This document shows, piece after piece, positions 6,338 through 28,289 of a stretch of 64,000 nucleotides of DNA; position 1 is the first letter of the stretch, and each line of letters begins with the position of its first letter. The stretch is taken from NCBI GenBank assembly GCA_030272155.1, contig CP126199.1:1178001-1242000 (forward strand), written 5' to 3'. A program made the translations under genes and the position numbers. The notes below the pieces were generated by a model, which worked only from the letters and a program-made list of their open reading frames with translations, had not been told where the DNA came from and ran no database searches. The stretch is from Tetradesmus obliquus (lineage: Eukaryota; Chlorophyta; Chlorophyceae; Sphaeropleales; Scenedesmaceae).

Positions 6338-6690
6338 CGATGCATTAGCGCCTCGCTGTGCTTGACGTACAGCTAATTATCGTGGTGTTTGAAGGGGTTT
6401 TGAGATTTGGGCACTCACGAAGGAATTTTAGGTTTGCACGCTTATGAAAGTAATGGTGTTTGAAGGGTTTTGAAAATCTGGGCACTCATGAAACTGACTC
6501 CTTTGCCATGTGGCCCGGCTGTAAGATTATGCAGCGGCTCCTGAGCACCGGCACATGTGTACACGCGCTGCACTGCCAATCTGCTGCAGGTTTGCATGCC
6601 TGGCTGACCCTTCAGTTGACTGCCGCCTGCCAGAAGACTTTGCTGACAAGCAGCCAGGCAATTCTTGGACCAAGAATGCATCCTGTCCCA

Positions 6691-6879
6691 GCTGCTTCCT
6701 CTACTTCAGGTGGGCCAGCTGCTTCCTCTACTTCAGGTGGGCCAGCTGCTTCCTCTACTTCAGGTGGGCCAGCTGCTTCCTCTACTTCAGGTGGGCCAGC
6801 TGCTTCCTCTACTTCAGGTGGGCCAGCTGCTTCCTCTACTTCAGGTGGGCCAGCTGCTTCCTCTACTTCAGGTGGGCCA
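6691..6879 (+). repeat. 27-bp minisatellite, 7 units
   Basis: Seven near-perfect 27-base units (each contains CTTCCTCTACTTCAGGTGGG). Because 27 is a multiple of three, several frames stay open across it. Each unit carries a CAG|GTGGGC splice-donor-like site, and the array begins where a plausible exon ends (about 6592-6709, with residues PEDFADKQPGNSW), so it resembles a repeated exon-end/donor junction. Confidence 0.92.
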
Positions 6880-7368
6880 GCCTACCTGCCTTTGCACGCC
6901 ATGCTAGTACTCGTGCTAGTAACACGTCCTTAACCACCCAGACCCACACTGCGCTGCTGACAGGCAGCAAGTGCAGCTGATAGAGGCAGTTATAGCCTGC
7001 CAGTGGCGAAATGCATGGGTGCTGTTGTGTACGCTGCGCACGCTCTGCAGTAATAGCTTGGTGCGCGGGGTCTGGCCACCTGCCAGGCGTGCGCCGGCTC
7101 TGTTGTGCTGCTGCTGCCGCTGCTGCCGCACTCTCGCTGCAGCTCACACGCCCCAGCGCCCTGCTATCTGTGTGGTAGCCTGGGGACCCTCCGCTGTTCA
7201 AGCGCTGCTGCTTCTGCACACAATGCGCCCGGCACGCAACCAGTGGCTGCTGTACAGAGCTGTGCACATGCAGCTAAAGCATGCCATCTTGTTGGTGCTG
7301 CACGCCTTCAATCCCCCCAAACCCCAAACTGACATGATCTCGCACTGCGGCGGGCTGCTTGCTGCAGG

Positions 7369-7461
7369 CACTGCTCCCAAGCCGATGGCTCAATGAACTC
7401 TTTGCCACTGAAGTTTGTGAGCAACAGTGCAAGCCCAGTGTCTCTGAAGGAGCATGCACTG
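7369..7461 (+). other. Candidate isolated exon of the secreted-protein gene
   Basis: The sequence is bounded by CTGCAG (acceptor) and GTAAGA (donor), and one frame reads an acidic Cys-containing segment (LNELFATEVCEQQCKPSVSE). It sits between the N- and C-terminal exon groups. Its end phase does not match the exon at 8316 directly, so another exon would have to intervene, or the call is wrong. Confidence 0.25.
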
Positions 7462-7491
7462 GTAAGAAGCAGGGTGTGGGACAGGTACTCG

Positions 7492-7923
7492 CACATGGCC
7501 GCACAGCCCATGTGTCTTGACATGGCCGCACAGCCCATGTGTCTTGACATGGCCGCACAGCCCATGTGTCTTGACATGGCCGCACAGCCCATGTGTCTTG
7601 ACATGGCCGCACAGCCCATGTGTCTTGACATGGCCGCACAGCCCATGTGTCTTGACATGGCCGCACAGCCCATGTGTCTTGACATGGCCGCACAGCCCAT
7701 GTGTCTTGACATGGCCGCACAGCCCATGTGGCTCGACATGGCCGCACAGCCCATGTGGCTCGACATGGCCGCACAGCCCATGTGGCTCGACATGGCCGCA
7801 CAGCCCATGTGGCTTGACATGGCCGCACAGCCCATGTGGCTTGACATGGCCGCACAGCCCATGTGGCTTGACATGGCCGCACAGCCCATGTGGCTTGACA
7901 TGGCCGCACAGCCCATGTGGCTT
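7492..7923 (+). repeat. 27-bp minisatellite, 16 units in two homogenised blocks
   Basis: Sixteen 27-base units containing ACATGGCCGCACAGCCCATG. The first eight read TGTCTT and the last eight read TGGCT(C/T) at the unit end; within the second block three adjacent units carry CTC and the last five CTT. Ordered variants of this kind show growth by stepwise duplication. All frames on both strands are open, which creates long spurious ORFs. It starts 30 bases after the GTAAGA donor of the candidate exon at 7369. Confidence 0.95.
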
Positions 7924-8315
7924 GACAGCAACACACCTGTGTAGTGCGGTGGGACTATGCATGCAGTTGAAGCTCCATGGCGTCATTGCTTACATTGGCA
8001 ACACGAATGCCTCTATTCAAGCGCACAGGCAAAGGGAACGAGGGGCAGCTTGCACCATAGCGATGGCAACTGCGGCCGCGGCCTTGCGGCGACGGAGAAT
8101 GGCGCGACATGCACGAGCTGCGCATGATGGCGATGACGAAGTTCTGTGGCTGGCTTGTTGTTGGTGTGACCCTGCGCAGCCACAGCTGCATTACCATCAC
8201 CCCATGAGCGGAGTAGCGGCTTGCTGGGCTAGTGCCTGGGGTCGGGTGCAGTCCCAACAGTGTATTGTATGATTGTATAGCATGGCATTGCTCTGCCCGC
8301 CGTGTGCTGCGCCAG

Positions 8316-11441: not shown

Positions 11442-14400
11442 CTACCCTGTGGCTACAAATGACGAATTGTGTGCAACCTGCAATACTTGAATCCGTGCCA
11501 AACCTTGCGACAGCTGAAGATGCACGATTGCAACCAAGGGCAAAACAATGAGCATTGTTGCAGACATCAGCTTATCATACGCTGATGAGTGAGTCACTCA
11601 GCCAGTGCAACAGCCATTGTTTCTAACTGACTTCACTGGCAGCGTCATGCATCTTCACACCTGGTGCCAAGTTCGCTGCTCAACCAAACCCGCCACCACG
11701 GATATAAGACAGATTGCAAAGCGAAACATGCCATTGAAGACAGCTATAACAAACAAAGCATGAGCCAGGAGTAGGCTCAGTATTCAAGGCAACACCATTG
11801 TTGCCGCACGGCGCGTGGATGCCTGGGCGAGGCGGGTGGCCGGGTCCCTGGCGGGTGCCTGCGGTCTGCAGGCAGCAGTGGGAGGCAAGGGGAGCACACA
11901 CCAGCCAGCAGGGGCAGCGGCAGGGCGGCTACGCCCAGAACAACGGCAGGCACTCGTGCAGGGGCACCTCGTGCCACTAGACCAACGCCTTGATGGGGCA
12001 ACACGACACCTCAAAGGGTACTAGGCAAATGCAAGAGTAACTGGCTGAACGGCAGGGACGAGCAGGGAGGAGGCAGCACTGGCGTGAGTGCTGAAGCAGC
12101 TGACCGCTCGAACGAGCTGGCCCAACCAGACTTGCAGTTGCAACTAAGACTTCAGCAGTGGGCTAATATGCAGCAGATCAGCGGGCAAAGTTGCTCGTGC
12201 TGTGTGCTGACGCGACCGACTGGTCAACAGCAGAGGTCTCCGGTTACACGCTGTTGCGCACGCTCAGGCTTCGCCTAGCTGGCAACTTACTGCACCGATG
12301 TGCGACTTAGCTATGTGCAGGCCTGGCGCGGCTCTGCACCGAGGGAAATAGCCCGTAGGCTGGGAAACTGGGAGAGCTCAGTTACACTGGTGCTGTAATC
12401 AACAGCAGAGGTGACTGTAGCCCAGATTTGGGCAGCAATTCGGTCTGCTGATAGCACAGGGACACAGAGTCGGTCCACTCTGTTCACTGACGTCCCCCTC
12501 TTCCCCTCTCTCTCTCTCTCTGTGTGTGTGTCTCTCGAAATGAAAATGTGCAGCGGCCTTTTATACTTCAGGCGGAAACTCAACCAGGACCACACAATCC
12601 TGTGGCTGTGGACGCGCAGCATCCCAGCCACAATACCGTTTGTGGTTGGAGGCTTCCTGTCCACTCAACAAACCCTGAGCCAGGGTGCAATGCAGGCCAA
12701 ACTTGTCACTTGCTCAGAGGCAGCACAAGGGCCATGCATACTGTCTTGGCCCAGAGCTTGCAGGGCGCAAGTCTATTCACAAAATCAACCGAAGTAGTCA
12801 ATTCCAAATGTTTTACTCTACACAATGAGACTAGGTTTGCTTGCTTCTGCCAGAATCGGCGGGTGGCACCATCTCACCGACAACTAGGCAGCCCGTAACT
12901 GGAGCAAGCTTGCTCAAATCAATATCTAATGTAATATTAAGTACAACTCGACCCAAGCAGGACCAAGACAGCTGTCTGTCGACATTCTGCTTGGCCTGCG
13001 CACCATCCACTCGTACACAGCACTTGCAGCATCAGCCAGCGCCAGCCATAACAAGGCGTATACACCGCAAGGCTGCGCGAATCAAACTTATACTGAATCA
13101 TAGTAACCAAATACTGCCGTCCTGCAAGCAGTACAACACCACTGCAGTAGCAGCAGCATTGCTGTCATGCTGCTGCAGCAGCTGTGCTGTGTGTGCCAAA
13201 CATGAGCGCAGCCCGAACATGCCTCATGCGGCTATGGTGCTCGGAATAGAGTGAAGCCAAGCATGCGTTTATGTTGATGGTGTTGCTCAAGAAGGACTGC
13301 TGCGACACTGCCGGGCACTCCACAAGACAGCAGCACCTGATATCACAGCTAGCACCCCACAAGGTGCAACAGCTGTTGCCACCTCCCCTAACAGACAAGG
13401 CCTGCCCTCAGGCCTAAACCACACAGGGCAAAGGACTGGTAACGGGCACGACCATGCTTGGTGAAAGCTGAAAGACAGCTGCATTGTATGGTACAGCGGG
13501 GCTAGTATACAGCGAGGGTCAACCAAGTGCCAGCCTGGCAACCAGAGTGCCAGGTGACTACTACATGCATCAACTGGCAAGCCAGGGCAAATGCCAGAAA
13601 CAACCATCATTTTGTCTCCCCTTTTTTTTTAATTGTGGCTAAATGCAAAACACAAACTGGCCAACCACACGGCTCCCTAAACCAAAAGCAGAGCCGGACT
13701 GGCATGCAGTCACAAAAAGCCAGCGGCTCGTAACAAACAGCCTGGCGATATTAACCAACTGCTGAGAATACTGCAGCTTTCAGCAATTGCCACACAAACA
13801 CGTGTGCAGCAGCATAGTGCAACCAGCAGCACTGTTATAACACCTGCCAAACCAACCACGCAGCGCGCAACAGTAGTGCTGCGCCATGTCTAACAGTCTG
13901 CTGCCAATCTTCCGAACTATAATCAAGCCAGCGTGTACTGTGACATCAGTAAGATATAAAGCTGTCACACACGTTCATTACCAACAAACTGCTGCCCAGC
14001 AGCAGCATCATAACCAGAGGAAGACCAGCAGAAGCCAGATTAATCAGGCTAGCTGCTAGCAGCAGCTGGGCCACAACGCAGCCAGCAGCATGCTGCCATC
14101 ATGCATGCCACCGTGACCATATCATGCGGTCAGTGAACAAGCAGTGCTGCCACGGAACAACTTGGCTGCACCTGGCTGCATTCTCCCCTCCACCAAACAA
14201 GCCAGGCCACCTGGACTGGGCTCACAGTGCGCTGAATGCGCGGCGCGAGAACAGCACGCCAATGTGCACCTCGCCATCAGCATCCACGTGGCAGTGGCTG
14301 CACATGTTGATCTCAGGCACAGCAGCTGCGACCACAGGGATGATGAGGGTCTGGCCCTGCTTGCCGGCAGAGTCAGCCTCGTCGCCGCGGTCTGCAGGAG

Positions 14401-17400
14401 CCGCGCACATGGCTGCTGCACCAGCGCCGCTGGGGGTGTTGCTAGGGCCGCAGCCTGGGAAGCGGCCACAGCCCTCGGGGCAGCTAGGCACCCTGTAGTC
14501 GCTGGAATGAGCAGATACGCGCTCACCCTCCCGCTTGCTGCTGTGCTCAGACCCAGATGAGTCGGGTCGCTGACACGCCCTCCAACAACCCTAGTTGGGC
14601 CCGGTGTGAACGTGAGGACGGCGCCCAAGCACCAACAATCACTGCTGCTGACCGAACGATGCGTGAGTGCGATGCTTGCACCGTAGAATGCCGCATCTCG
14701 CATAGATTTCCCTGGACGACTTCCTTGCTGACAGGGGCTCTCCAGACCGCAAAATCAAGCAAACTCGATCACAACAACCACTCGGAACCATGCCAAGGGG
14801 CGACATGAGTAGCTACAAGGGCGTTGTCAGGCAGCAACCTGGCAAGCTTCCCGAAACCAACAGCGACACTGCGACTGCAGCGCCTGAGCATCGCAACACA
14901 ACCAGGACGTAAAACGATGCTGGTAAGCTGATGCACAAACCAGGCAGGCAGCAGCTGTCAACCTCAGCAGTGCCTTGGTTGCTGCTGCTGCTGCTGCTGC
15001 ATGTGCACATGCAACTCCCAGCTGCAAATTGAAATTTAAAGGGTGTGAGCAACTGATGCTCCGGAACGGGCCCTGGGGACGAGGGCTAGGGACGGGTCTC
15101 AGGGACTTGAAGGCTGCCAGGGGTTGGCGAGCCCGCCCACGTACCGCAACGCACCCTTAGTTGCATGCGGATCAAAGTCCAGCGTAATTCTGTAAGCCAG
15201 GGGTTGCCTAGCATACAGTAACTGCATGATTTTCTCTGCGCGCCGCCATCTCACTCCGCAGCAGCGCCCGGCTTGCGCAGCAGCTGCTTGGGTGTGTCAG
15301 CAGTGTAGGGTGCCAGCCGTGTCACTGAAACACTCCACTGGCGGTTGTCGTTGTCTTGTAACACAGCCCGCTTGAAATCTGGTGAGTAAGCTGCCAGGTA
15401 GAAGGGGCCTTCTGTTGACAACTTTTTGTGCATTTTGGTGTACTGCGACATCTTCATCAGGCAGAGGTCGCCCACTTTGATGACTGAATCAGGGCGCAGC
15501 ACATGGTGCCGCTTCCTGAAATCTCTTTTCTGCTTCTCTTGACTTGCCAGGATGTTTTTCTCCACTTTAACCAAGGTGTCCTGCCTGCTGGCTGCGCGCT
15601 GCTTGATGTCACTCAACAGGTCACCAGCCGGCTCCTGGGAGTTCGTGAGGTCGATCGGTGGGCTCTGTGCAGCACCAGGCAGGTGAGCCGCAGTAGCTGT
15701 TGTAAAGCCTTCCAAGTTGATGCCACTGGTTGTATAACGCGCAGCAGCAGCTGCACCAGCAGCAGCTGCAGCAGCAGCTGCACCAGCAGCAGCTGAAGGG
15801 AATGCTGTTGTAGCCTGCCAAGAGGCTGGCAAGTGTTGCCACCAGTCGTCATCGTCGTCGTCGGCTGATGTGGTCATAGCTGCTGCAGCAGCAGCTGTCT
15901 GTGCGCTGAACGGGGTGCCTGTGACGCGCGCAGCAGTGACCGGGGTGCTGTTGCCAGCCGCTGCAAGGTTGTCAGGGACAGCTGCCTCTGTATTTGGCAC
16001 CGCAGCTGTGTCTGTGCGCTGCTCTGCAGCTGTTAGTCGCCTCACATCGGCTGGCAGGCGAGGCGTGCGTGCCATAGCCGCCTCAAACGGCGTGCATTTG
16101 GTAGTGCTGTGAGGTGCAGAGCGTAAGCCAAGCAGCACCCAGGGCAGCTTAACGTCCCAGTCCTCTGCTCTGTCCAGGCTCGCCTGCAGTGCTCGCAAGA
16201 TGCTCTTCACACTTGACTCTGCCTGGCCGTTGACATTTGGCGCATATGCAGGGGACCGTATGTCCTTGATGCCCAATGTCTTGAGCATTTTGCTGTACTC
16301 TCCCTGGTACTCTTTGCCGTTGTCGCAGACGAAGGCCAGAGGGCAGCCGTATTGGGCGATCCAGTTGACGCAGAAGCGGGTGGTGGTGGCTGAATCCAGC
16401 GACTCCACTGCTTCCGCGTGCACCCACTTGCTGGTGGAGTCAACACCCACAATGATGAAGCGAGCTCGCCTGGGAGTTGTGGGATATGGCCCCATGCTGT
16501 CCAGGTGAACTCGGGTGAACAGCGGTGATGGTGGGATGGGCTTCAACTCAGGCTGCAGCTTGAACAGCGCCCTGTTGCGCAGGCAGCTGACACAGCCCTT
16601 CAAGTTGTCCTTGATTTGCTGGGACATGTTTCGCCAGTAATAGTTTTTTAGCAGCATGCCGCGCAGCCTCTGCTGACCAACATGTCCGTAATCTTCATGA
16701 TACTCCAGACACAGTGCATCGCGCTGGTGAGGGGGCGGCACCTCTCTCTCCCTCGGGCACTTGGCTGATGCTTTGAACAGCAAGCGGCCGGTTGCAGCAT
16801 CCCATCTGTAATTGCTTGCGCGCTTCTTGATGCGCTTCATCTTGTTCTTGATCTCTGTTCTTGTGTCGCCTTGCAGATTGTCAGCATCAACCTTGCTGTG
16901 CTGAATGTAATGCAGCACTGACAGGTCATCAAAGATGTCCCTTGGGCCGCACCCAGCATCCTCTTCTTCTTCCTCCTCTGAAGAACTGCCACCTTCTTCC
17001 TCTGGGTGCCCCTGGCCTGTGCCCGCCTGCACAGGAGGGCTGGGCGTGCTTCGCTGCTTGGGTGATGGTTCCCCATCTGTGTCCCAATCTGAGCTGGTGT
17101 CTTCACCATCTGAGGTGGGTTCGTACTCGGAGCTGGTGTTGCTGACAGCAGCGGCAGCTGCAGCTGCTGCAGCTGCTGGCTCAGAATCGCTAGGCTGCTC
17201 GTCACTGCTGCTGGGCTTGCAGTCAGCACAGTACCAGTCGCCGGCTGGTACTGACTTCAGGCCCACGCAGTAGGTGTGATAGCCGTCAACGCAGCCTGAG
17301 CATAACAACATCTTGTCATCATCCTGGTTGCGGTGGCATACCCTGCATGCCAAGTTTGGATCCACGGAGGGGCCTGAATCGTCTTTTTCTGTTATGGGTG

Positions 17401-20400
17401 CTGCTGCTGCCGCTGCTGTGTGCTTGCGCTGCAGGGTTGAAGGCTTCTTCTTTGGTGGTGCGGCGGCACGCGCACCTTGTTCCAGCACATTGAGCTGGGC
17501 AGTAAGCTCACCAGAGCCTGATTGGTGCGGCACGCTGCTTGCCAGCCGCAAGTGAGTTGATGGGTCAATGGCGCTGCCACCATAACTCATTTCCTGTAGT
17601 AATGGGGTGACTGTGGCTGTGTTGATGAGCGGCAGGGAGGCTTGCAGCCCGCAGCACAGCAGCGGCCGCAGCCTCACTACCCTGATCCAGCCATCCAGCA
17701 CAAAGCCTTCATTGCGGAGGCCATCCTGCCAGGGAAATGCAACTTCGCAGCTGCCCTGGCGGTTGATGCCTGGAAACTGTGCTGTCAGGCCTCTCATCCT
17801 GTGCCTGGCATAAGTGTTGGTGTCAACGTAAACGGCCTCTGAGCCGTTTTCGTGGACTTGGCGCACTTGCAGAGCCCCGAGTGCTTTGCGCGGCGCAATT
17901 GCAAGCTGTATGTTGGACCCTGGAGCGTTAGCTGCATGTGGACCAAGTTGTGAATAAACCTCAACTGCTCTGACGTTGTCAACCCTGTTGGCTGTGTTCA
18001 CAGGTTCGCCATAACGCCGCTGATATGTGCAGTGAAAGGCCTCAGAGAAGGCGAACCTGCCAGGGCCGTTCTGGAACAGCACAGGCACCTCCAGCTCGGC
18101 GTTGTAGATCAGGCCCAGCGGGGTGTACAGGTAATTGGGTAGCAGGGTACTGCTGCTGTTGTCAGCAGCAGCAATTGTGGGAGCTGTAGCGGCCACAGCA
18201 GCAGATGCCAGCTGAGGCAGTGCCGGGCGCCCTTCTGTAGCTGGGGTTAAAACCAACAGCTGCTGCATGGGTGTTGACTGTAGATCGCTGGGGGGGGATG
18301 CAGACACATCCATAGCATCGGGCGAGATGCAGGGTGCTGCAGAGCTCGGTGTCGTCTGTGTGCCTGCAGGACTGTCCAAGTGTGCAGCTGCTACTTGGCC
18401 AGCAAGCAGCTTCACTGCATCCAGCGCAGCAGCTGCTACCTTCTCGGGGTCAGCATCTGCGTGGATGACGATTTTAGGGCCAGGGAAACTGCTGAGGGCT
18501 TGTTTGTACTGTGTGTCCAACTTCTGCAGGTAGCCGAGTGTGACAGCTTCTTCGCCTGGTCTCTGCCTCTTCTGAATCCGTCGCAAGCATTCCTTGGGTG
18601 GCACATCCAGGTAAATGATGGCGGTCGGCCATGTGCTGCTGAGGGTGTGGTTCATGTAGAACGCCACATCACACACCAGCTGCTCAAAGGCTGCTGGCAA
18701 CTGTTGAGCGGCCAGGAACACTTCTAGCGATGACCAAGGGCCGCGCTCCATCACCACCATAGGAGAAGCCAGCGCATCGGGGGTAGCTTTGGCATATGCT
18801 ACCAACACGGCAACCTGCAGCAGCGCTGCAATGCCCTGCTGTGTGGTGGAACCCGCTGCAGCACTGTAGAAAGGGGCCAGCAGCGACTCCCAGTCATGCA
18901 CTGGTTCGGGCACTAAGTGCCACTCAGTGCATGACAGCTCTTGAGCCAGGTGGGCTATAACTCGCGACTTGCCGCTGCCAATGTTGCCATCGATATAAAT
19001 GCGCACCGGTGATGCGCCTGCTGACTTGCAGGATACGCCAGGACGCCAAGGCAAGTATGAAGCTGGCGCTGGAGTGAGGAGCTGGTTGTCATCTGCTGCA
19101 AGCTCCTCGTTGCAAGTTGGCGTGCGGGGACTGTCATCTCCTTGTGGGGTGCGTGCATCGTTGACATCATCGAGAGCAGCCGCAGCTGTTGTTGGCGCTG
19201 CTGTTGTCGCTGTTGCCGTTACCACAGTCAAACCTGTAGTGCCAGCGGTAGCAACGCTGGCGTCTGGCGGGCACTCGGTGTTGCACTCAGTGTCGCTGAC
19301 AGTATAAATTTCGTCCAGTAGGTGCGCTCCATAGCAGTAGATTTCGGGGCGGGGATGGGGTATGCTTGCCTCATCCCCATCATCGCTGTCAAAGGTCGGA
19401 TCGCGCGTGAGGGCATCCACACTTCTGTGCATGGTCCCCTTGCGGTGCTCAATGGCAAGGCCAGGCAGCAGCTCCTGTAGACGTAAGCTCCAGCGGGCCA
19501 GCCTGCCTTGTAAGTGTGTGCTGGTTAGCAAGTACTTTAGAGCTGCATGGTCGGTGTAAACTGTGACACCCGGCGGATGGTGCCAAAGCCACTGCCGCCA
19601 CTGCACGCACACCGCTTCAATCACTGCAAGGCACTCCAGCTCGGAGATGCTGTAGTTGCGCTGCGCGGGTGTCAGCTTCCTTGAATGATAAGCAACAACC
19701 CACTCTTGTTTGCCGGTGTCATCTTTTTGGGTCAGGATGGCGCCCACTGCTTGACCAGAGGCGTCGGTGTGCACGTAGAAAGGGCGGCTGAGGTCTGCGC
19801 GCCGTAAGCACGGTGGGGTCAGCAGATTGCTCTTGAGCGTATCAAATGCCTGCTGCTCCTCAGCTCCCCACTTCCAGGGATTTGTCTTCTTCAACAGGTC
19901 TGTGAGGGGCGCTGCAACCTTGGCGTAGTCCTTCACAAAGCGGCGGTAGTAGCCTGTAAGGCCCAGCCAGGATGCCACCTCCTTGGGGTTGCGTGGTGGC
20001 TGCCTGTTGGATATTGCTGTCAGCAGCCGAGGATCTGGCTCAAGACCCTCTTGCGTAAACACGAACCCCAGGAATGTAACTTCAGATCTGAAGAAGGAAC
20101 ACTTCTTCGGGTTGAGGCGCAGGTTGGCCTGTCGTAGCGCCTCAAGCATCAGCTCTAGGTGCTCAACATGCTCTTCGAAGGTGCATGAGTAGACAATGAT
20201 GTCATCCAGGTAAACAAACGCGTGCTTGCCAACCTGCTCACTCAGCACCTTGTTCATAATCCTCATGAAGCAGGCTGGTGCATTGGTTAGCCCAAAGCAC
20301 AGCCGCAAGGACTCAAACAACCCGAAGGGTGTGATGAACGCTGTCTTTGGCACTGAGTCTGGGTGCAGGGCCACCTGGTTGAAGCCACAATATGCATCCA

Positions 20401-23400
20401 TCGTTGCCAGGTACTTGCAAGGACCCAGCTGAAACACAATGTCATCAATCAACGGCATGGGGTACGCGTCCTTGCGCGTAATGGCATTTACGCGCCTGCT
20501 GTCCACCACCATGCGCGTTTCACCGTTGGGCTTGGGCACAAGGTGCACTGGGCTAGCCCAGGGGCTATTGCTTTCCCTGATAATACCAAGCTCTAGCAAG
20601 CGCGTGATGTGCTCCTTGAGCTGTAGGTACTTCTGGTGTGGCATGCGATAAAACCCCTGCTTCACAGGTGGTGCGTCACCTGTGTCAATCTCATGAAAAT
20701 CCACTGTGCAAAGCCCCAGGTCAGAGGGCTTAAAGCAAAACACGTCTGCGTTGCGCTGCAGCATGCCTAACGCCCGCTCAGACTCCTCCTTTGACAAGTT
20801 GCTGCCATCGAGCATGCTTGCAAAAGATGTAGGGTTATCACTCAACATATCATCGTCCGGGAAGGCACAGGGGTCATCCTCCGGCACAAGCAGCACGCTT
20901 GTGTTTTGTGCCTGGCCCGCCTTTTCTGTGATTGGCAAGTAAACTGGAGGATCCGGCGATACCGGCGCTGTGCCATGACCACTTGTGTGGAGAAGCAGGG
21001 CTTCTGGCTCTTCACCAGCAATGGGCTCGTAGTCACTGAGCGTGCTGCCGGTGTACATGTACACTGGCGATGTGAGATCCTCTAGTGAGGGGCAATCATC
21101 GCTGCACATGCTGTCACTGTCGCTGTCTAGCGGGGGGCAGTCGCTCCAGCTGTCACAGTCGTCCGCAGCATCACCCTCAAACAGTAGAATTTGATCTGGC
21201 TCCTCCATGTCTCCTAGAGGCTCGGGCAGCGCCACTCCCAAGTCGAAACTGGCAAGCAGTTGCTGGCTGATAGGGTCCAGACCTGCGTAAGGCTCGCTCA
21301 GTGCAAGCAGCGCCTCATGCCTGCTGCTGCTTGCACTTGGCGAGGGCTGAGATGCTTGCACCGACACGTAAGAAGGGGTAGTCGCAGGAGGCAGGGACTC
21401 AAGGGTGTACCGGCTGCGTTTGGGCGGGGGCGGTGGCATGGCTTCCCTGTCCGCAACTTGTCGCTGTTGATTGTGGCTGCTAGGTGGGTAAGGGTAGTCA
21501 TGGTCGCTCCCATAGAAAGCGGGGGGCAGCCGTGTGCCGCCGTAGCGGGCAGTGCTGCGCGCGTGAGAGACCGTTGGCTGGTAGGGAGCAGGTAAGGGTG
21601 AGCTGGAGTAATACAGCTCTCCTGGCTGCTGATTGTCATAAGATTCGGGTGGGAAGTGCTGCGCCTGTGGCAGCAGCTGCCCTTCATCGTCACATACTTC
21701 ATCTTCGTCTTCACTCTCATTGTTGCTCTCCGACTGCCACTGCCCATTTGTGATTTCAGGCTGCTGGCCAGGCCAGGTGCTGACGGGTTCAACACGCGAA
21801 ACAACGCTGCGCGAGGGAGGCGCTGGGGCCTCTTGTTCATCCAGCTGCTCCAAATAATGGCGCGTTGACAGCGGTGCAAGTGGCGTGACGCAGCGCTCTG
21901 CTGCTGTGACGGCGGCATCAGGTGCGTGCTGTTGTGTTCCAGGCTGCACAGGGACGGGCCTGACGGAGCTGTACATGCTGCGAGAGAACACAGCATCAAC
22001 CCAGTCATCGCTGCTGCTGCTATCATCGTAATGGCTGTTAGTGTCTGGGCTGGAGCAGCTGCCACTGTCAGCTGTGAGGATCTGCTCTGTGGCGATGAGG
22101 CCGTTTTTGATGTCCTCGAAGGCAGCTTCCTGCCACTCTGCCAGCAGTGACAGGCGAGCTTCTGTCGCAGGAATGTACTTCGGGATTAGTAACTCCTCCA
22201 GCTCATGCATCCTGCTCAGCCGCTTGTCCATCCACTGCTCATACAGCAAACTATCAGCCTGGTTTGCGTTGCTGGGCACGCAACGCTTCCAGCCTGGCGC
22301 GTCTGGGCCGCAGGGCGGCAGAGAGAACACCGTGAAGATGTAGTCAAAGAACAGGTCTGAAAACACTGGATCAGGCTGCCAGCCTGCTTCGCACGCCTGA
22401 CAGTCGCAGTCGTCGTCTGCTGTGCAGTCCGGCGCTGCTGCTGTGAGCATCTCATCCCAATACAGGGTAGCAGCTGAAGCCTCGTTGGAAGCGAGAGTGA
22501 TGTCAAGCTCCTGCACTGTGTCCTGGTCGATGCGCAGCAGCATCTTGAGCCTGTCGTAGTCAATTACAGCCCTTGCCCTGCTCAGCACATCATTGCCGAT
22601 CAGCAGGTCGTAGTTCAGGGCTTCGGTAACAGTGGGGCTGATGAGGGTCTCAAAGGCGCCCAGCCCGAGGGCCATGTTGAACACGCGGCCCTTGCCAGCT
22701 GAGATCCTGCCATCTGCATTGATGTAGGATACGCCCATGTCTTTGGCGTTCAGGTGCTCCAGGTTGCAGCGGCGCAGGCAGTCCAGAGTGACTGCACTGG
22801 TGGTGGCACCCGTGTCCACCACAGCTGTGAGCTCCTGACCGTTGAGTGCTGCTGCCACCTTGCAGGTGGAGACACGCTGCCCTGCTGGACGCACGCCACG
22901 GCTCAGCAAGCCGTGCCTAAGCAGTGATGCAGAGGGCTGCGCAGCTGCTGTGCGCATGGGGCCTGTTTGCGCCATGTTTAGCAGCAAACCGGCGCCTGGG
23001 CGCCTGCTGCTGGTGTGCAAGCTTCTGATCAGCGAGTCAACCTGGCGTGCCATGTCTCTGCCCTGGTCGACCATCTTCTTGTCGCCCACCAGGTGGCCAG
23101 CTAAGCAGGTGAGCACTGCCTGTGGCACCACTGTGCTTTCACGGATGCCGTCTAGCTTGATGCTCTTGCAGATAACTGAAGCCATCTCCTTGCCCTTGTC
23201 ATCTGCCAGCTTAGCAGCATCAAAGCAGCTGCTAGCCTCTGGGGCTGATGCATTGGCTGCTCGTGCGGGCGCTGCAGCTGTAGCAGTGGTGGTGGTGCGT
23301 GGTGCAGCACCGTAGGGGCGAGCGTCCACTGGTGTACGCTGCCTGGGCATGCGCCTGCTGGCATCGTAAGCTGAGCTGCTGCCAAACTTGTTGGCGGCCG

Positions 23401-26400
23401 AGGTGCCGCCATCACCAACAGCAGTCGCAGCTGTAGCGGTTGCAGCAGCTGCACTAGTGCTGGTGACACCTTGCATGCGTGTTGGACCACGCGGTGGCTC
23501 TGGTGGCTGCCGGGAGGGCACGAACGGGCTGTTGGCATGGGGGTTGACTGCCACCCGCTTGTGGGGGACCCTAAGGGTGAAAGGGTCTGACTCATCCCTG
23601 GGGTGTTTGGCATAGATTGATGCCATCACCTCGCCCAGGTACTGCTCATCAATCTCGTCTTCGTAGCCACTATCAGCTGTGTAGCCAAAGAGGTTAATCT
23701 GCGGCATTGCTGCCGCTGTTGCCTGCGTCTGCTGCTGCAGGGCATGGCGCAAGTGCCTGATCTCCTTCTCCTTATCACGCAGCTGCTGAGATGTGTTGAT
23801 CTCAAGCTTCTCAAAGCGGCGGGTGAGGTCATCAATGGCGGAAGAGCATGATGAAGCAGCGGCGACAGCAGCAGGCTTGGAGGCCGCAGGTGAGGGGTGT
23901 GATGCGGCAGCTGGCCTGTTGCTCACATCACGAAAGGGCTGCCGGTTGTTGTCGCGAAAGGCAGCTCTGTTGTGATCACGAAAGGGAGGCCTGTAAGGGC
24001 TGGGGCGTTGCCCTGCACCCTTGTTTTCAAGCTGATGGCTGTTGCTGCGCACGCCAGCTGCATAGCTGTTGTTGCTGCTGCTGCTGTTCACAGCCCTGCT
24101 GCCTGAGATAGTGCCGCCAACTGGGTAGGGCTCGTCAGAAAACCTGACTGACTTCACAGGCATGTCTGCATTAAAGCTGGCGCGAAACCCCAGCCAGTAG
24201 TTGCAGAAAGATACCACCTCATCAATGCTGCGCATGCGCATGCGGCCTGCCTCCTCACAGAGGTCTAGGCGCAGGCGCTTGATGAACATATAAACCAGGG
24301 CGTCATCCTCAACCCTGCCTGCACGTTCTGCATCCTGCAGGAACCTGTCAGCGAACTCTGTGGGGCTCTCATCCTGCAGCTGGTAGCAGGACTCAAAGCG
24401 GCAGATGGCTGTTTCCTTGGTCTCGCCAAAGCGACGCAGGAACTGGGAAGAGAAGTCATCCCAGTCGGTGAACTGCCGGTTGCGCGCCCAGCGTGACGCT
24501 GGGCCCTTCATCTTGAGCCTCGCCACCTTCAAGAGCGTTTCCTCTGACCACCCGTACAGTGACGAGAGGTCTAAGAAATTCTCAACCCAGGCATGGGCAT
24601 CACCCTTGCCGTCAAACTTGTCAGCAGTATTGAGTGCTTGGGGGGTGAGACCAGCTGGCAGAGCATGCTGCTGGTTGGAGGCAGCCGCTGGCGGTGCTGC
24701 GGCGTTGGCTGCAGCGCCGGCTGAGGTGCCGCTGGCTGAGGGGAGACTAGAATTAGTGATGCTGGTGTTCTTATCCATGCTGGAGACGGCTGGGTAGAAC
24801 ACACTTGTTTTTTGTGGGTGCAGAGGCAGCTTGCAGGAACACTGCAAGAGGGCTGTACCCTTTTGTGGTTATCTGGTGTGCAAGGGTGGCTGCAGAGATT
24901 GCTGCCTGCCTTTTTGCAATGAACGGCTATCAGAAAGACGTATCTGCTTCCGTAATGGGGTAACAGGGGCCTGAACGCTGAAAAGGCACAAACTGCTAGA
25001 CCGCAATGCGGTTTAGTAGTAGCAGTAGCTGCTGCTGTAAGGTCGCAGACCGAATCGGTGCAGTTGCTGCTACGCAAGACGTCTGCCAAGAGTATTTGAG
25101 TGCTTTTAGCAACAGCGGTAAGGCTCTGCTGAGTTTACGTCGGTGAAGAAGTAGCTCGAGTAGGCAGTGGAAGCGCGGATGGGCTCAGGCCGCGGTAAAC
25201 AGGATCTTTTTCTTGTTTTGCCTTTGAAAAGGCTGTTACAGCTCCAAGAGCTGTCTCGGCTACCAGCACGGCGCGTGGATGCCTGGGCGAGGCGGGTGGC
25301 CGGGTCCCTGGCGGGTGCCTGCGGTCTGCAGGCAGCAGTGGGAGGCAAGGGGAGCACACACCAGCCAGCAGGGGCAGCGGCAGGGCGGCTACGCCCAGAA
25401 CAACGGCAGGCACTCGTGCAGGGGCACCTCGTGCCACTAGACCAACGCCTTGATGGGGCAACACGACACCTCAAAGGGTACTAGGCAAATGCAAGAGTAA
25501 CTGGCTGAACGGCAGGGACGAGCAGGGAGGAGGCAGCACTGGCGTGAGTGCTGAAGCAGCTGACCGCTCGAACGAGCTGGCCCAACCAGACTTGCAGTTG
25601 CAACTAAGACTTCAGCAGTGGGCTAATATGCAGCAGATCAGCGGGCAAAGTTGCTCGTGCTGTGTGCTGACGCGACCGACTGGTCAACAGCAGAGGTCTC
25701 CGGTTACACGCTGTTGCGCACGCTCAGGCTTCGCCTAGCTGGCAACTTACTGCACCGATGTGCGACTTAGCTATGTGCAGGCCTGGCGCGGCTCTGCACC
25801 GAGGGAAATAGCCCGTAGGCTGGGAAACTGGGAGAGCTCAGTTACACTGGTGCTGTAATCAACAGCAGAGGTGACTGTAGCCCAGATTTGGGCAGCAATT
25901 CGGTCTGCTGATAGCACAGGGACACAGAGTCGGTCCACTCTGTTCACTGACGTCCCCCTCTTCCCCTCTCTCTCTCTCTCTCTCTGTGTGTGTCTCTCGA
26001 AATGAAAATGTGCAGCGGCCTTTTATACTTCAGGCGGAAACTCAACCAGGACCACACAATCCTGTGGCTGTGGACGCGCAGCATCCCAGCCACAATACCG
26101 TTTGTGGTTGGAGGCTTCCTGTCCACTCAACAAACCCTGAGCCAGGGTGCAATGCAGGCCAAACTTGTCACTTGCTCAGAGGCAGCACAAGGGCCATGCA
26201 TACTGTCTTGGCCCAGAGCTTGCAGGGCGCAAGTCTATTCACAAAATCAACCGAAGTAGTCAATTCCAAATGTTTTACTCTACACAATGAGACTAGGTTT
26301 GCTTGCTTCTGCCAGAATCGGCGGGTGGCACCATCTCACCGACAACTAGGCAGCCCGTAACTGGAGCAAGCTTGCTCAAATCAATATCTAATGTAATATT

Positions 26401-28289
26401 AAGTACAACTCGACCCAAGCAGGACCAAGACAGCTGTCTGTCGACATTCTGCTTGGCCTGCGCACCATCCACTCGTACACAGCACTTGCAGCATCAGCCA
26501 GCGCCAGCCATAACAAGGCGTATACACCGCAAGGCTGCGCGAATCAAACTTATACTGAATCATAGTAACCAAATACTGCCGTCCTGCAAGCAGTACAACA
26601 CCACTGCAGTAGCAGCAGCATTGCTGTCATGCTGCTGCAGCAGCTGTGCTGTGTGTGCCAAACATGAGCGCAGCCCGAACATGCCTCATGCGGCTACGGT
26701 GCTCGGAATAGAGTGAAGCCAAGCATGCGTTTATGTTGATGGTGTTGCTCAAGAAGGACTGCTGCGACACTGCCGGGCACTCCACAAGACAGCAGCACCT
26801 GATATCACAGCTAGCACCCCACAAGGTGCAACACATATAAGGAAAGTTGCCGAATTGCATTCATTACAAGCATCAGCATCATGCAACATAATGCGCACTC
26901 ACATGGCAAGAAGTGGTCCCCCGAAAGGCCACCGTGGCTGCTGAACCTCAGATTAGCATGTGCAGCTCCTGCTTCTGCTCCTACGTCGTCTAGTATTACC
27001 TGCAACCATAACAACACCTGGTCAGCGCCGTCCCGAAGAGCCACGATGCCCTTCGGGGGCAACGGCACTGACAGTCTTCCATCCTCTTGTAGTCCTTGGT
27101 AGCCTGGGTAGTGACACCTTGTCAGTGACGCCACTTGGTTGACACCGTAGCTCAGATTGAAGGTGAAGTTTTCCTCGCAAGAAGCAGGAGTGGCAGTAGT
27201 GTAAATTGCATGTAATGGGGGAATGTGTATGCCGGCTGCACCGTTTCGTACTACTGTCATTCAAAGTTGACTGTCCTAGTGGCCATGTATGGCATGTTGT
27301 AAATTTCCTCGTCCTTTATCAGACGATGGGCGCTCAGCGCTCCCCATCGTCACGTGCGAGTGATCGTATGGGATGTGTTATATGCATTGAGGATACCCAC
27401 CCGCATGCCCCATACTAATAGGAAGATTCCGTGGTCAACAGCTGGGTTTGCGCCGAGAGCTCAGTCATCACAGCATGCCACCGTCATGGCATGCTCAGCA
27501 GCAGTCTCAAGCCAGCACCATCCCCAGCAGCAGCATCATAGCCACCGCGGATCAACCATATAAACCACAGAAACAGCCAGCAAACAAGGCGTCCTCTGCC
27601 TAAGTAAGCCATATGAAAGGCATCTCTACCTGAATGGAGCATCTCCTGCTCAGCGTGCACAAGATGCACCTCAACAGGCCCATGACGCTGACATAGGCGC
27701 AAGATATGCCAGGCGCAAAAGAACAACGTTGTTAACAACACGCGCGGTGCCCTGCATGACACACAGCTACAGCAGGTAAGCTTGTACAAGCTGCTCACAG
27801 CCGAATGCCTGCTGTAGCCGTGTGGTGCATTCAGTCAACAACCACGCCCCAATCAGTTGTTCAATCCTGTGGCAGCCAACCCTACATATAAGAACAGCAA
27901 TGTACCTGCGTACACGCACTTTGCCACCGCAACGGTGCTGCCAAGGTGCGGTTTGCTATCAAATGAACAAAACGCAGACAACAAGCGCTGTGCGCCGCGT
28001 CTGGCTGTGGCGCATCCACTTGTTTATGTGAATGTCTCCTGCTGCAAATGCAACCAAAATGCACAAAGCGCTCAAACATTCCATGTATGCTCCATACCGC
28101 ATAGATTTATGCCGTATGTCCCATAGAAATGCCACCAATGAACATACCATCAAGTGTCTGCCGCATTTTTGCAGTGCTCTGGCTGACAACTTCGCTGCTG
28201 AAACAGCGACACGCAGCCACCATCAGGACCCCCACAGCAATGAGGCGCCGCAAGCAGCAGCGGCATGCAGCATGCCGGGATAGATACAT
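11442..28289 (-). CDS. Putative small membrane protein gene split by a retrotransposon
   Basis: Low-confidence model on the minus strand: exon 28148-28289 (ATG at 28289; basic N-terminus then hydrophobic LIAVGVLMVAAC, a likely signal anchor), an uncertain exon around 27960-28041, then 27630-27751, 26903-27235, 11661-11743 and 11442-11513 (stop TAG). Junction phases agree from 27751 to the stop even though the whole 15-kb element lies between 26903 and 11743. Readable segments are ASCEENFTFNLSYGVNQVAS, then KGIVALRDGADQVLLWLQVI, and a second hydrophobic stretch FRFAICLISVVAGLV. I recognise no family. If real, the element sits in an intron in sense orientation. The donor of exon 2 is the weakest point. 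Confidence 0.35.
11806..13371 (-). repeat. 3' LTR
   Basis: This 1,566-base copy matches 25266-26833. I see one microsatellite length difference (CT/GT tract near 12500 versus 25970) and one T/C substitution (13236 versus 26696). It contains the TATA motif (12557-12565, minus strand) and short chance ORFs that I do not call. Confidence 0.95.
13379..13389 (-). promoter_or_regulatory. Candidate polypurine tract
   Basis: Minus-strand AGGGGAGGTGG lies 7 bases before the start of the 3' LTR. It is the expected place for the plus-strand primer of an LTR retroelement, although a 7-base gap to the LTR edge is unusual. Confidence 0.5.
13390..15250 (-). other. Element 3' region with a possible extra reading frame
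   Basis: There are 1.9 kb between the polyprotein stop and the polypurine tract, much longer than in compact Ty3 elements. On the minus strand about 14570-14222 is GC-rich and open for some 115 codons, ending in a stop at 14222. It reads SSDYRVPSCPEGCGRFPGC, then PVVAAAVPEINMCSHCHVDA and GEVHIGVLFSRRAFSAL. No ATG lies near its start, so expression would need splicing. It could be an accessory gene, a captured host exon or chance. The rest shows no coding signal. Confidence 0.3.
15251..24847 (-). CDS. Gag-Pol polyprotein with deoxynucleoside kinase and PHD finger
   Basis: Single frame of 3,198 codons; translation probably starts at Met24 (MDKNTS). Domains by residue: Retrotrans_gag about 84-180 (GPASRWARNRQF, ESCYQLQDESPTEFADRF); no CCHC zinc knuckle seen; repeated PFRD motifs near 290-310; aspartic protease with DTGAT at 678-682; a long acidic disordered linker; reverse transcriptase about 1380-1640 with YLDD at 1546-1549; RNase H from about 1690 (catalytic TDASG, Asp1695). 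Then comes a deoxynucleoside kinase at about 1948-2150: P-loop GNIGSGKS 1954-1961, EPVHDW with Glu1981, MERGPW with Glu2034, and lid RIQKRQRPGEE near 2090-2100. An unrecognised domain follows (about 2240-2400), then a PHD finger (Cys2501-Cys2543, C4HC3), integrase zinc-binding domain, integrase core D2783, D2842, E2877, and an SH3-like C-terminal domain (VGDLCLMKM). All catalytic residues that I can check are present. Confidence 0.96.
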   Translation of the reverse strand: MQCSCKLPLHPQKTSVFYPAVSSMDKNTSITNSSLPSASGTSAGAAANAAAPPAAASNQQHALPAGLTPQALNTADKFDGKGDAHAWVENFLDLSSLYGWSEETLLKVARLKMKGPASRWARNRQFTDWDDFSSQFLRRFGETKETAICRFESCYQLQDESPTEFADRFLQDAERAGRVEDDALVYMFIKRLRLDLCEEAGRMRMRSIDEVVSFCNYWLGFRASFNADMPVKSVRFSDEPYPVGGTISGSRAVNSSSSNNSYAAGVRSNSHQLENKGAGQRPSPYRPPFRDHNRAAFRDNNRQPFRDVSNRPAAASHPSPAASKPAAVAAASSCSSAIDDLTRRFEKLEINTSQQLRDKEKEIRHLRHALQQQTQATAAAMPQINLFGYTADSGYEDEIDEQYLGEVMASIYAKHPRDESDPFTLRVPHKRVAVNPHANSPFVPSRQPPEPPRGPTRMQGVTSTSAAAATATAATAVGDGGTSAANKFGSSSAYDASRRMPRQRTPVDARPYGAAPRTTTTATAAAPARAANASAPEASSCFDAAKLADDKGKEMASVICKSIKLDGIRESTVVPQAVLTCLAGHLVGDKKMVDQGRDMARQVDSLIRSLHTSSRRPGAGLLLNMAQTGPMRTAAAQPSASLLRHGLLSRGVRPAGQRVSTCKVAAALNGQELTAVVDTGATTSAVTLDCLRRCNLEHLNAKDMGVSYINADGRISAGKGRVFNMALGLGAFETLISPTVTEALNYDLLIGNDVLSRARAVIDYDRLKMLLRIDQDTVQELDITLASNEASAATLYWDEMLTAAAPDCTADDDCDCQACEAGWQPDPVFSDLFFDYIFTVFSLPPCGPDAPGWKRCVPSNANQADSLLYEQWMDKRLSRMHELEELLIPKYIPATEARLSLLAEWQEAAFEDIKNGLIATEQILTADSGSCSSPDTNSHYDDSSSSDDWVDAVFSRSMYSSVRPVPVQPGTQQHAPDAAVTAAERCVTPLAPLSTRHYLEQLDEQEAPAPPSRSVVSRVEPVSTWPGQQPEITNGQWQSESNNESEDEDEVCDDEGQLLPQAQHFPPESYDNQQPGELYYSSSPLPAPYQPTVSHARSTARYGGTRLPPAFYGSDHDYPYPPSSHNQQRQVADREAMPPPPPKRSRYTLESLPPATTPSYVSVQASQPSPSASSSRHEALLALSEPYAGLDPISQQLLASFDLGVALPEPLGDMEEPDQILLFEGDAADDCDSWSDCPPLDSDSDSMCSDDCPSLEDLTSPVYMYTGSTLSDYEPIAGEEPEALLLHTSGHGTAPVSPDPPVYLPITEKAGQAQNTSVLLVPEDDPCAFPDDDMLSDNPTSFASMLDGSNLSKEESERALGMLQRNADVFCFKPSDLGLCTVDFHEIDTGDAPPVKQGFYRMPHQKYLQLKEHITRLLELGIIRESNSPWASPVHLVPKPNGETRMVVDSRRVNAITRKDAYPMPLIDDIVFQLGPCKYLATMDAYCGFNQVALHPDSVPKTAFITPFGLFESLRLCFGLTNAPACFMRIMNKVLSEQVGKHAFVYLDDIIVYSCTFEEHVEHLELMLEALRQANLRLNPKKCSFFRSEVTFLGFVFTQEGLEPDPRLLTAISNRQPPRNPKEVASWLGLTGYYRRFVKDYAKVAAPLTDLLKKTNPWKWGAEEQQAFDTLKSNLLTPPCLRRADLSRPFYVHTDASGQAVGAILTQKDDTGKQEWVVAYHSRKLTPAQRNYSISELECLAVIEAVCVQWRQWLWHHPPGVTVYTDHAALKYLLTSTHLQGRLARWSLRLQELLPGLAIEHRKGTMHRSVDALTRDPTFDSDDGDEASIPHPRPEIYCYGAHLLDEIYTVSDTECNTECPPDASVATAGTTGLTVVTATATTAAPTTAAAALDDVNDARTPQGDDSPRTPTCNEELAADDNQLLTPAPASYLPWRPGVSCKSAGASPVRIYIDGNIGSGKSRVIAHLAQELSCTEWHLVPEPVHDWESLLAPFYSAAAGSTTQQGIAALLQVAVLVAYAKATPDALASPMVVMERGPWSSLEVFLAAQQLPAAFEQLVCDVAFYMNHTLSSTWPTAIIYLDVPPKECLRRIQKRQRPGEEAVTLGYLQKLDTQYKQALSSFPGPKIVIHADADPEKVAAAALDAVKLLAGQVAAAHLDSPAGTQTTPSSAAPCISPDAMDVSASPPSDLQSTPMQQLLVLTPATEGRPALPQLASAAVAATAPTIAAADNSSSTLLPNYLYTPLGLIYNAELEVPVLFQNGPGRFAFSEAFHCTYQRRYGEPVNTANRVDNVRAVEVYSQLGPHAANAPGSNIQLAIAPRKALGALQVRQVHENGSEAVYVDTNTYARHRMRGLTAQFPGINRQGSCEVAFPWQDGLRNEGFVLDGWIRVVRLRPLLCCGLQASLPLINTATVTPLLQEMSYGGSAIDPSTHLRLASSVPHQSGSGELTAQLNVLEQGARAAAPPKKKPSTLQRKHTAAAAAAPITEKDDSGPSVDPNLACRVCHRNQDDDKMLLCSGCVDGYHTYCVGLKSVPAGDWYCADCKPSSSDEQPSDSEPAAAAAAAAAAVSNTSSEYEPTSDGEDTSSDWDTDGEPSPKQRSTPSPPVQAGTGQGHPEEEGGSSSEEEEEEDAGCGPRDIFDDLSVLHYIQHSKVDADNLQGDTRTEIKNKMKRIKKRASNYRWDAATGRLLFKASAKCPREREVPPPHQRDALCLEYHEDYGHVGQQRLRGMLLKNYYWRNMSQQIKDNLKGCVSCLRNRALFKLQPELKPIPPSPLFTRVHLDSMGPYPTTPRRARFIIVGVDSTSKWVHAEAVESLDSATTTRFCVNWIAQYGCPLAFVCDNGKEYQGEYSKMLKTLGIKDIRSPAYAPNVNGQAESSVKSILRALQASLDRAEDWDVKLPWVLLGLRSAPHSTTKCTPFEAAMARTPRLPADVRRLTAAEQRTDTAAVPNTEAAVPDNLAAAGNSTPVTAARVTGTPFSAQTAAAAAAMTTSADDDDDDWWQHLPASWQATTAFPSAAAGAAAAAAAAGAAAAARYTTSGINLEGFTTATAAHLPGAAQSPPIDLTNSQEPAGDLLSDIKQRAASRQDTLVKVEKNILASQEKQKRDFRKRHHVLRPDSVIKVGDLCLMKMSQYTKMHKKLSTEGPFYLAAYSPDFKRAVLQDNDNRQWSVSVTRLAPYTADTPKQLLRKPGAAAE
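24848..25247 (-). other. Retrotransposon 5' leader
   Basis: About 400 bases lie between the primer-binding site and the ORF. No separate coding region is evident. It is expected to hold packaging and dimerisation signals, none of which can be recognised by eye. Confidence 0.6.
25248..25265 (-). promoter_or_regulatory. tRNA primer-binding site
   Basis: On the minus strand the sequence right after the 5' LTR is TGGTAGCCGAGACAGCTC. It starts with TGG, complementary to a tRNA 3' CCA, with zero offset from the LTR edge. The implied tRNA ends in GGCTACCA; I cannot name the isoacceptor without the tRNA set of the species. Confidence 0.85.
25266..26833 (-). repeat. 5' LTR
   Basis: This 1,568-base copy is the promoter-bearing LTR for the minus-strand element. 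Its inner edge at 25266 is fixed by the adjoining primer-binding site, and its outer edge at 26833 by loss of identity with the other LTR. Confidence 0.95.
26019..26027 (-). promoter_or_regulatory. TATA box of the 5' LTR
   Basis: TATAAAAGG on the minus strand, about 0.8 kb inside the 5' LTR, with the CT/GT microsatellite 30-60 bases downstream. It is the best core-promoter candidate for the genomic RNA; the start site is not determined. Confidence 0.55.

Follow-up and report, generated by a model that had tools for sequence, protein, structure and literature searches.

Captured enzymes in LTR retrotransposons

In fungi and bdelloid rotifers, Ty3/gypsy LTR retrotransposons (Juno, Vesta and TelKA) have Pol proteins that include a dUTPase domain (PMC2864245, PMC5408684), and replication in non-dividing cells has already been discussed for this retrotransposon enzyme (PMC2864245). 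Orchid Gypsy elements encode an m6A demethylase (PMC9289625), and DNA methyltransferases have likewise been described in LTR elements (PMC5890265). Moreover, deoxynucleoside kinase (dNK) genes occur in large DNA viruses, e.g. phycodnaviruses (PMC4602308).

The window analyzed in our study, a stretch of 64,000 nucleotides of Tetradesmus obliquus DNA, contains an LTR retrotransposon with a dNK domain in its polyprotein (Table 1). The element resembles the dUTPase elements in having an added enzyme of dNTP metabolism in Pol, which in those elements lies at varying places (PMC2864245, PMC5408684). However, dUTPase removes dUTP whereas a dNK makes dNMP, and here the enzyme lies between RNase H (RH) and integrase (IN) and is accompanied by a PHD finger and a further domain, X. 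Like the demethylase and methyltransferase elements, it belongs to a retrotransposon lineage in which an additional enzyme domain became fixed, a rare event, but those enzymes concern RNA or DNA modification and not nucleotide supply (PMC9289625, PMC5890265). The large DNA viruses likewise have their own dNK (PMC4602308), and viral models match the fold of the element domain; in contrast, these are DNA viruses, and among viral contigs we found no close sequence relative of the element dNK (28% identity at best), and none at all among phages.

The first-pass annotation of this DNA knew of no LTR element with a dNK. Our literature search for a retrotransposon with a dNK, a nucleoside kinase or a thymidylate kinase yielded no relevant paper among the titles listed. 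LTR retrotransposons with a captured enzyme of dNTP metabolism are already known; the dNK is the new enzyme there, as far as the literature searched shows. A retroelement dUTPase guards against one bad nucleotide, while a kinase would enlarge the supply itself, a step for which we found no report in an LTR element in the literature searched.

Table 1. Positions of the element and its parts in the window
Feature	Position	Strand	Basis and remarks
Whole LTR retrotransposon	11799..26833	(-)	paired direct repeats, one long gag-pol frame between them, C4 copy
5' LTR (upstream in element sense)	25266..26833	(-)	direct-repeat match
Putative primer-binding site TGGTAGCCGAGACAGCTC	25248..25265	(-)	adjoins 5' LTR
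Single ORF, 3198 codons, no stop	15251..24847	(-)	first in-frame ATG is codon 24 (24776-24778)
Gag domain PF03732	24272..24526	(-)	Pfam, residues 108-192
Aspartic protease (PR), DTGA	22577..22855	(-)	Pfam, residues 665-757; motif read in sequence
Reverse transcriptase (RT), YLDD	20060..20539	(-)	Pfam, residues 1437-1596; motif read in sequence
RNase H	19472..19795	(-)	Pfam, residues 1685-1792
Deoxynucleoside kinase domain	18398..19018	(-)	residues 1944-2150; Pfam 1950-2132, predicted fold, residue map
Domain X	17528..18097	(-)	residues 2251-2440; kept across clade, no known family
PHD finger	17219..17347	(-)	Pfam, residues 2501-2543
Integrase zinc-binding H2C2 domain	16571..16738	(-)	Pfam, residues 2704-2759
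Integrase core (rve)	16238..16462	(-)	Pfam, residues 2796-2870
3' LTR	11799..13371	(-)	final 7 bases (11799-11805) absent from inner end of 5' LTR

The element has long terminal direct repeats and the order PR-RT-RH-IN, with RT preceding IN, as in Ty3/gypsy elements (Metaviridae), and its nearest RTs among the matches listed belong to polyproteins with gypsy-type domains, in an RT tree that held no copia, Bel or retrovirus outgroup. The integrase core scored 29.9 bits, slightly below the Pfam cut-off of 32.6, while the relatives P0001-P0006 were at or above it; three acidic positions, which we take to be those of the integrase, are readable in the window sequence.

Domain X had no Pfam match and no convincing match in the PDB. 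Its only two matches in the genome were both element copies, and by BLAST it was found in 13 of 128 proteins, all of them dNK elements (34-49% identical). The structure model of X is mostly confident over the first 148 of 208 residues. The PHD finger preceding the integrase, possibly a chromatin-targeting part, was matched in 13 dNK elements and also occurs in three gypsy polyproteins of Haematococcus that have no dNK.

The kinase domain and its possible role

The Pfam dNK profile (PF01712), a search proposed in the first-pass annotation, matched residues 1950-2132 with an E-value of 1.5e-26 and 93.9 bits against a cut-off of 27. In the PDB, sequence matches to deoxycytidine kinase (dCK) reached an E-value of 2e-13, with NDUFA10 also among the matches. 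Structure prediction, likewise proposed, gave the dCK/dNK fold, and all 50 of the 50 structural matches listed were dNK-family entries. A profile search with the element dNKs and three ordinary dNKs in the profile also supports the family. Since the Pfam E-value and the PDB matches to dCK agree with the predicted fold, and other elements have this domain in the corresponding position, a chance match is excluded. All four motifs named beforehand were located in the ORF, i.e. GNIGSGKS (1954-1961), EPVHDW (1981-1986), MERGPW (2033-2038) and RIQKRQRPGEE (2090-2100), and the domain reported as intact and in frame at 18398-19006 corresponds to residues 1948-2150 in a (-) strand frame without stop. 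Its placement between RNase H and integrase held in so far as RNase H (1685-1792) lies before and integrase (2704-2870) after it; however, it does not adjoin the integrase, as domain X and the PHD finger intervene.

We compared 19 element rows in human dCK numbering, leaving out the truncated P0010 and P0108. Gly28, Gly33, Lys34, Ser/Thr35, Glu53, Pro54, Tyr86, Arg128, Phe137, Arg188, Arg192 and Glu197 were kept in 19 of 19 rows, residues which presumably serve 5'-OH activation, contacts to the 3'-OH and phosphate, and the LID. The position of Glu127 is Asp in P0097 and that of Arg194 is His in P0002. The hallmarks of the family, namely the P-loop, the catalytic Glu (EP), the ER/DR motif and the LID Arg, are thus present, and with human dCK and Drosophila dNK the domain shares the fold, these motifs and the sugar contacts. 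It differs from human dCK in its place in a retroelement polyprotein, in an identity of only about 26%, in the lack of the dCK insert of approximately 20 residues and in the positions of Phe96, Gln97, Arg104 and Asp133. Phe96 falls in a gap in all 19 rows, and Arg104 is Gln in all of them, residue 2011 of the window ORF; Asp133 is replaced by Ser in 18 rows and by Ala in one. At Gln97, which adjoins the alignment gap, only three of the 19 rows have Gln (window, C4 copy and P0114), the others having His, Glu, Asp, Pro, Ser or Asn. All four dCK residues are retained in the host dNK and also in P0011 and P0012, two sequences that fall together with a viral contig in the tree.

Arg104 and Asp133 of dCK matter for base choice. 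Structures have been solved for the R104M/D133A mutant with L-thymidine, and their titles fit this role. With the catalytic residues kept and the base-pocket positions changed, catalysis looks intact and base choice looks altered, judging from the aligned residues. The first-pass annotation had suggested that the ERG variant may mark altered substrate choice. This suggestion is weak, given that ERG occurs in 9 of 21 element dNKs (C4 copy counted) and ERS/DRS in the other 12; in this alignment the triplet is not a clade mark, and the change at Gln97, Arg104 and Asp133 is the stronger sign of an altered preference.

The supply of dNTPs limits reverse transcription, and cells exploit this as a brake on retroelements. 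We consider it probable that a dNK was captured, most simply in a single event, by an apparently green-algal lineage of Ty3/gypsy-type LTR elements, became joined in frame to Pol between RNase H and integrase, and has been retained there as a functional enzyme that aids reverse transcription. The kinase would be made together with Gag-Pol and so be packaged within the virus-like particle or beside it, and would convert at least one deoxynucleoside to dNMP. Its base preference would differ from those of dCK and the host dNK. Host kinases would then complete the dNTPs, and the local or cytosolic supply would aid reverse transcription when pools are low. By analogy, the suggestion published for dUTPase, replication in non-dividing cells, would carry over to the element dNK (PMC2864245). 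We count the dNK profile and fold, the order RT-RH-dNK-PHD-IN, the clade-wide retention, the residue conservation and the second genomic copy for this explanation. Against it we count that Gln97 is found in only three of 19 rows, that the RT and dNK trees do not match, that P0125 shows no dNK, that host kinases are present and that a dNK alone yields only dNMP.

A more specific version is put forward tentatively, namely a lineage with part of its own nucleotide supply in which the RT-fused dNK has a clade-specific base pocket tuned to the deoxynucleoside that limits algal cDNA synthesis and forms a metabolic module in or beside the particle. The presence of the kinase alongside RT, here and in the related elements, suggests a contribution to the DNA precursors needed for copying the element. 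The clade offers a natural series of this enzyme in which the catalytic centre is conserved and the base pocket remodelled, so that synthesis of own precursors and base choice are directly testable in laboratory algae and in vitro.

Alternatively, the domain may be an active kinase that serves something other than the reverse transcription of the element, such as the deoxynucleoside pool of the host in trans, nucleosides that are modified or toxic, or an uncommon substrate. We regard this as rather unlikely. In its favour, the base pocket is rebuilt throughout the clade with the catalytic residues kept, and the genome already has salvage kinases: a third dNK locus at C1:3491150-3492185 (within C1:3488001-3495000) was matched in three pieces that are probably exons of the host's own gene, with inferred introns, and a TK1-type kinase was matched on C2. 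The element kinase is therefore not the sole salvage kinase present, which also counts against a simple account in which the cell lacks salvage. However, the fusion into Pol between RNase H and X, PHD finger and integrase would point to a role in the replication complex.

A structural or regulatory role of the dNK fold, e.g. in nucleotide sensing or as a Pol scaffold, with no need for catalysis, is less probable still. Such a case is NDUFA10 of complex I, a subunit of dNK fold without such a catalytic role; it is among the sequence matches, and the base contacts are changed. Nevertheless, all 19 rows share the P-loop Lys, Glu53, Arg128, the LID residues Arg188 and Arg192, Tyr86 and Glu197, beyond what a scaffold would need.

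A thymidylate-kinase-type or other nucleotide kinase is very improbable. Several database matches are labelled 'thymidylate kinase', and the window domain weakly matched the Pfam Thymidylate_kin profile (21.3 bits, below the cut-off of 27) and NCBIfam dTMP_kinase (29.1 bits, below the cut-off of 83.25). Some relatives pass the Thymidylate_kin cut-off, with 43.0 bits in P0002 as the best score. Yet the dNK profile scored higher in each protein scanned, the structural matches listed were of the dNK family throughout, and all 19 rows have the EP motif with the catalytic Glu of dNKs.

Relatives, genomic copies and history

Fusions of RNase H, dNK and integrase, which the first-pass annotation had suggested to look for elsewhere, were found in related polyproteins. 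The dNK part of the full polyprotein had six matches among 5.8 billion proteins (47-57% identical in dNK), all six with the order RT-RH-dNK-PHD-IN. P0006 starts near RT, and P0001 has no Pfam gag match, yet is 61% identical to the gag stretch of the window by BLAST. A search with the cut-out domain gave seven more matches, of which P0007-P0010 are element-like and P0011-P0013 ordinary dNKs (29-30% identical). As the alignment of P0008 (Scenedesmus sp. NREL 46B-D3) with P0003, 60% identical over 328 aligned columns, includes the upstream linker, P0008 is a piece of an element.

The RT-RH search had 764 matches, of which 120 were listed; among these PF01712 was present in 14 of the 15 matches whose RT is at least 50% identical and in none of the 105 others. 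Nine of the 14 were new (P0087, P0097, P0098, P0105, P0108, P0110, P0111, P0114 and P0115), which brings the dNK polyproteins besides that of the window to 15. P0108 has the first half of the dNK only, and the frame of P0114 ends after it. In P0125, the exception among the close RT relatives, no dNK is seen and the frame ends approximately 138 residues past RNase H. Outside the elements, nothing nearer than about 32% emerged as a dNK donor from the database, viral-contig and phage searches.

An RT tree of 71 rows was built by a quick method from the window, the C4 copy, the 15 polyproteins, P0125, 35 other database matches chosen by identity and 18 of 57 other genome RT matches. The 17 dNK rows and P0125 lie on one side of a branch (SH-aLRT 100), and the 18 fetched genome loci fall outside this group. 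The element dNKs form one clade as well (100/100). From these trees, bearing the kinase is a clade trait. For a common set of 15 elements, the RT and dNK trees agree in their main split (9 vs 6; bootstrap 94 for RT, 100 for dNK), as predicted by one old capture. However, an identical topology was rejected: the RT topology had an AU p of 0.006 when tested on dNK data, and the reverse test on RT data gave 1.3e-8. Without P0114 the values were 0.009 (dNK data) and 0.017 (RT data), and without P0114, P0002 and P0115 they were 0.058 and 0.021, respectively. This conflict may mean that elements recombined with each other, that contigs are chimeric or that the model is in error.

A second copy on C4 (7.045-7.060 Mb) is 98.4-99.3% alike in long matching blocks over nearly the whole length, and its LTRs are identical at 1556 of 1560 positions. 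Window positions 14285-14560, outside the reading frame, are missing from these blocks. The C4 reading frame has an interruption within RNase H and gaps at 15 codons in other parts, but its dNK runs through unbroken; 4 of 207 dNK codons are changed, two of them silently. The annotation had named lack of the domain in other copies as a refutation; this copy and the other elements have it, apart from P0125, and none of the grounds for refutation it gave held for the window element. Only these two element-type dNKs were found in the 104.7 Mb genome, where counts are lower bounds. C12 holds a remnant LTR, of which the matching pieces are 76-89% alike.

Across nine other long elements the mean identity to the window was 0.56 in RT, 0.57 in RNase H, 0.51 in dNK, 0.43 in X, 0.47 in the PHD finger and 0.41 in integrase, while the linkers flanking the dNK had 0.18 and 0.24 in the same 10-element alignment. 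As far as protein data go, the dNK appears to be kept by selection. Gene capture by LTR elements is known and the C4 frame is broken, but a passive passenger or assembly artefact is hardly credible, as there are two genomic copies, the domain stays in frame in relatives whose dNK identity is only 45-58%, and the conservation contradicts such a reading.

Repeats and borders of the element

The direct repeats at 11806-13371 and 25266-26833 are identical at 1564 of 1568 positions, so the insertion in the window is young. A TATA-like GTATAAAAGG lies approximately 805 bases into the 5' LTR. The putative primer-binding site begins with TGG and adjoins the 5' LTR; at the four other genome matches to its 12-base complement ARAGORN found no tRNA. 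Three-base repeats flanking the element ends were read by eye as ATG at C9 and as GTT, within a microsatellite, at C4, while C12 showed no clear repeat.

At its outer end the 3' LTR has seven extra bases (GGCAACA in element sense) without counterpart at the inner end of the 5' LTR, and these are present in the C4 and C12 insertions too. Ordinary tRNA-primed copying is expected to yield identical LTR ends, from which this excess departs. The motif GGCAACA-GC-TGTTGC is located on the inner border of the 3' LTR. Besides, the window contains two 27-base minisatellites, at 6661-6908 and at 7385-8005, the latter with a frame open throughout that encodes a repeating TWPHSPCVL-like peptide.
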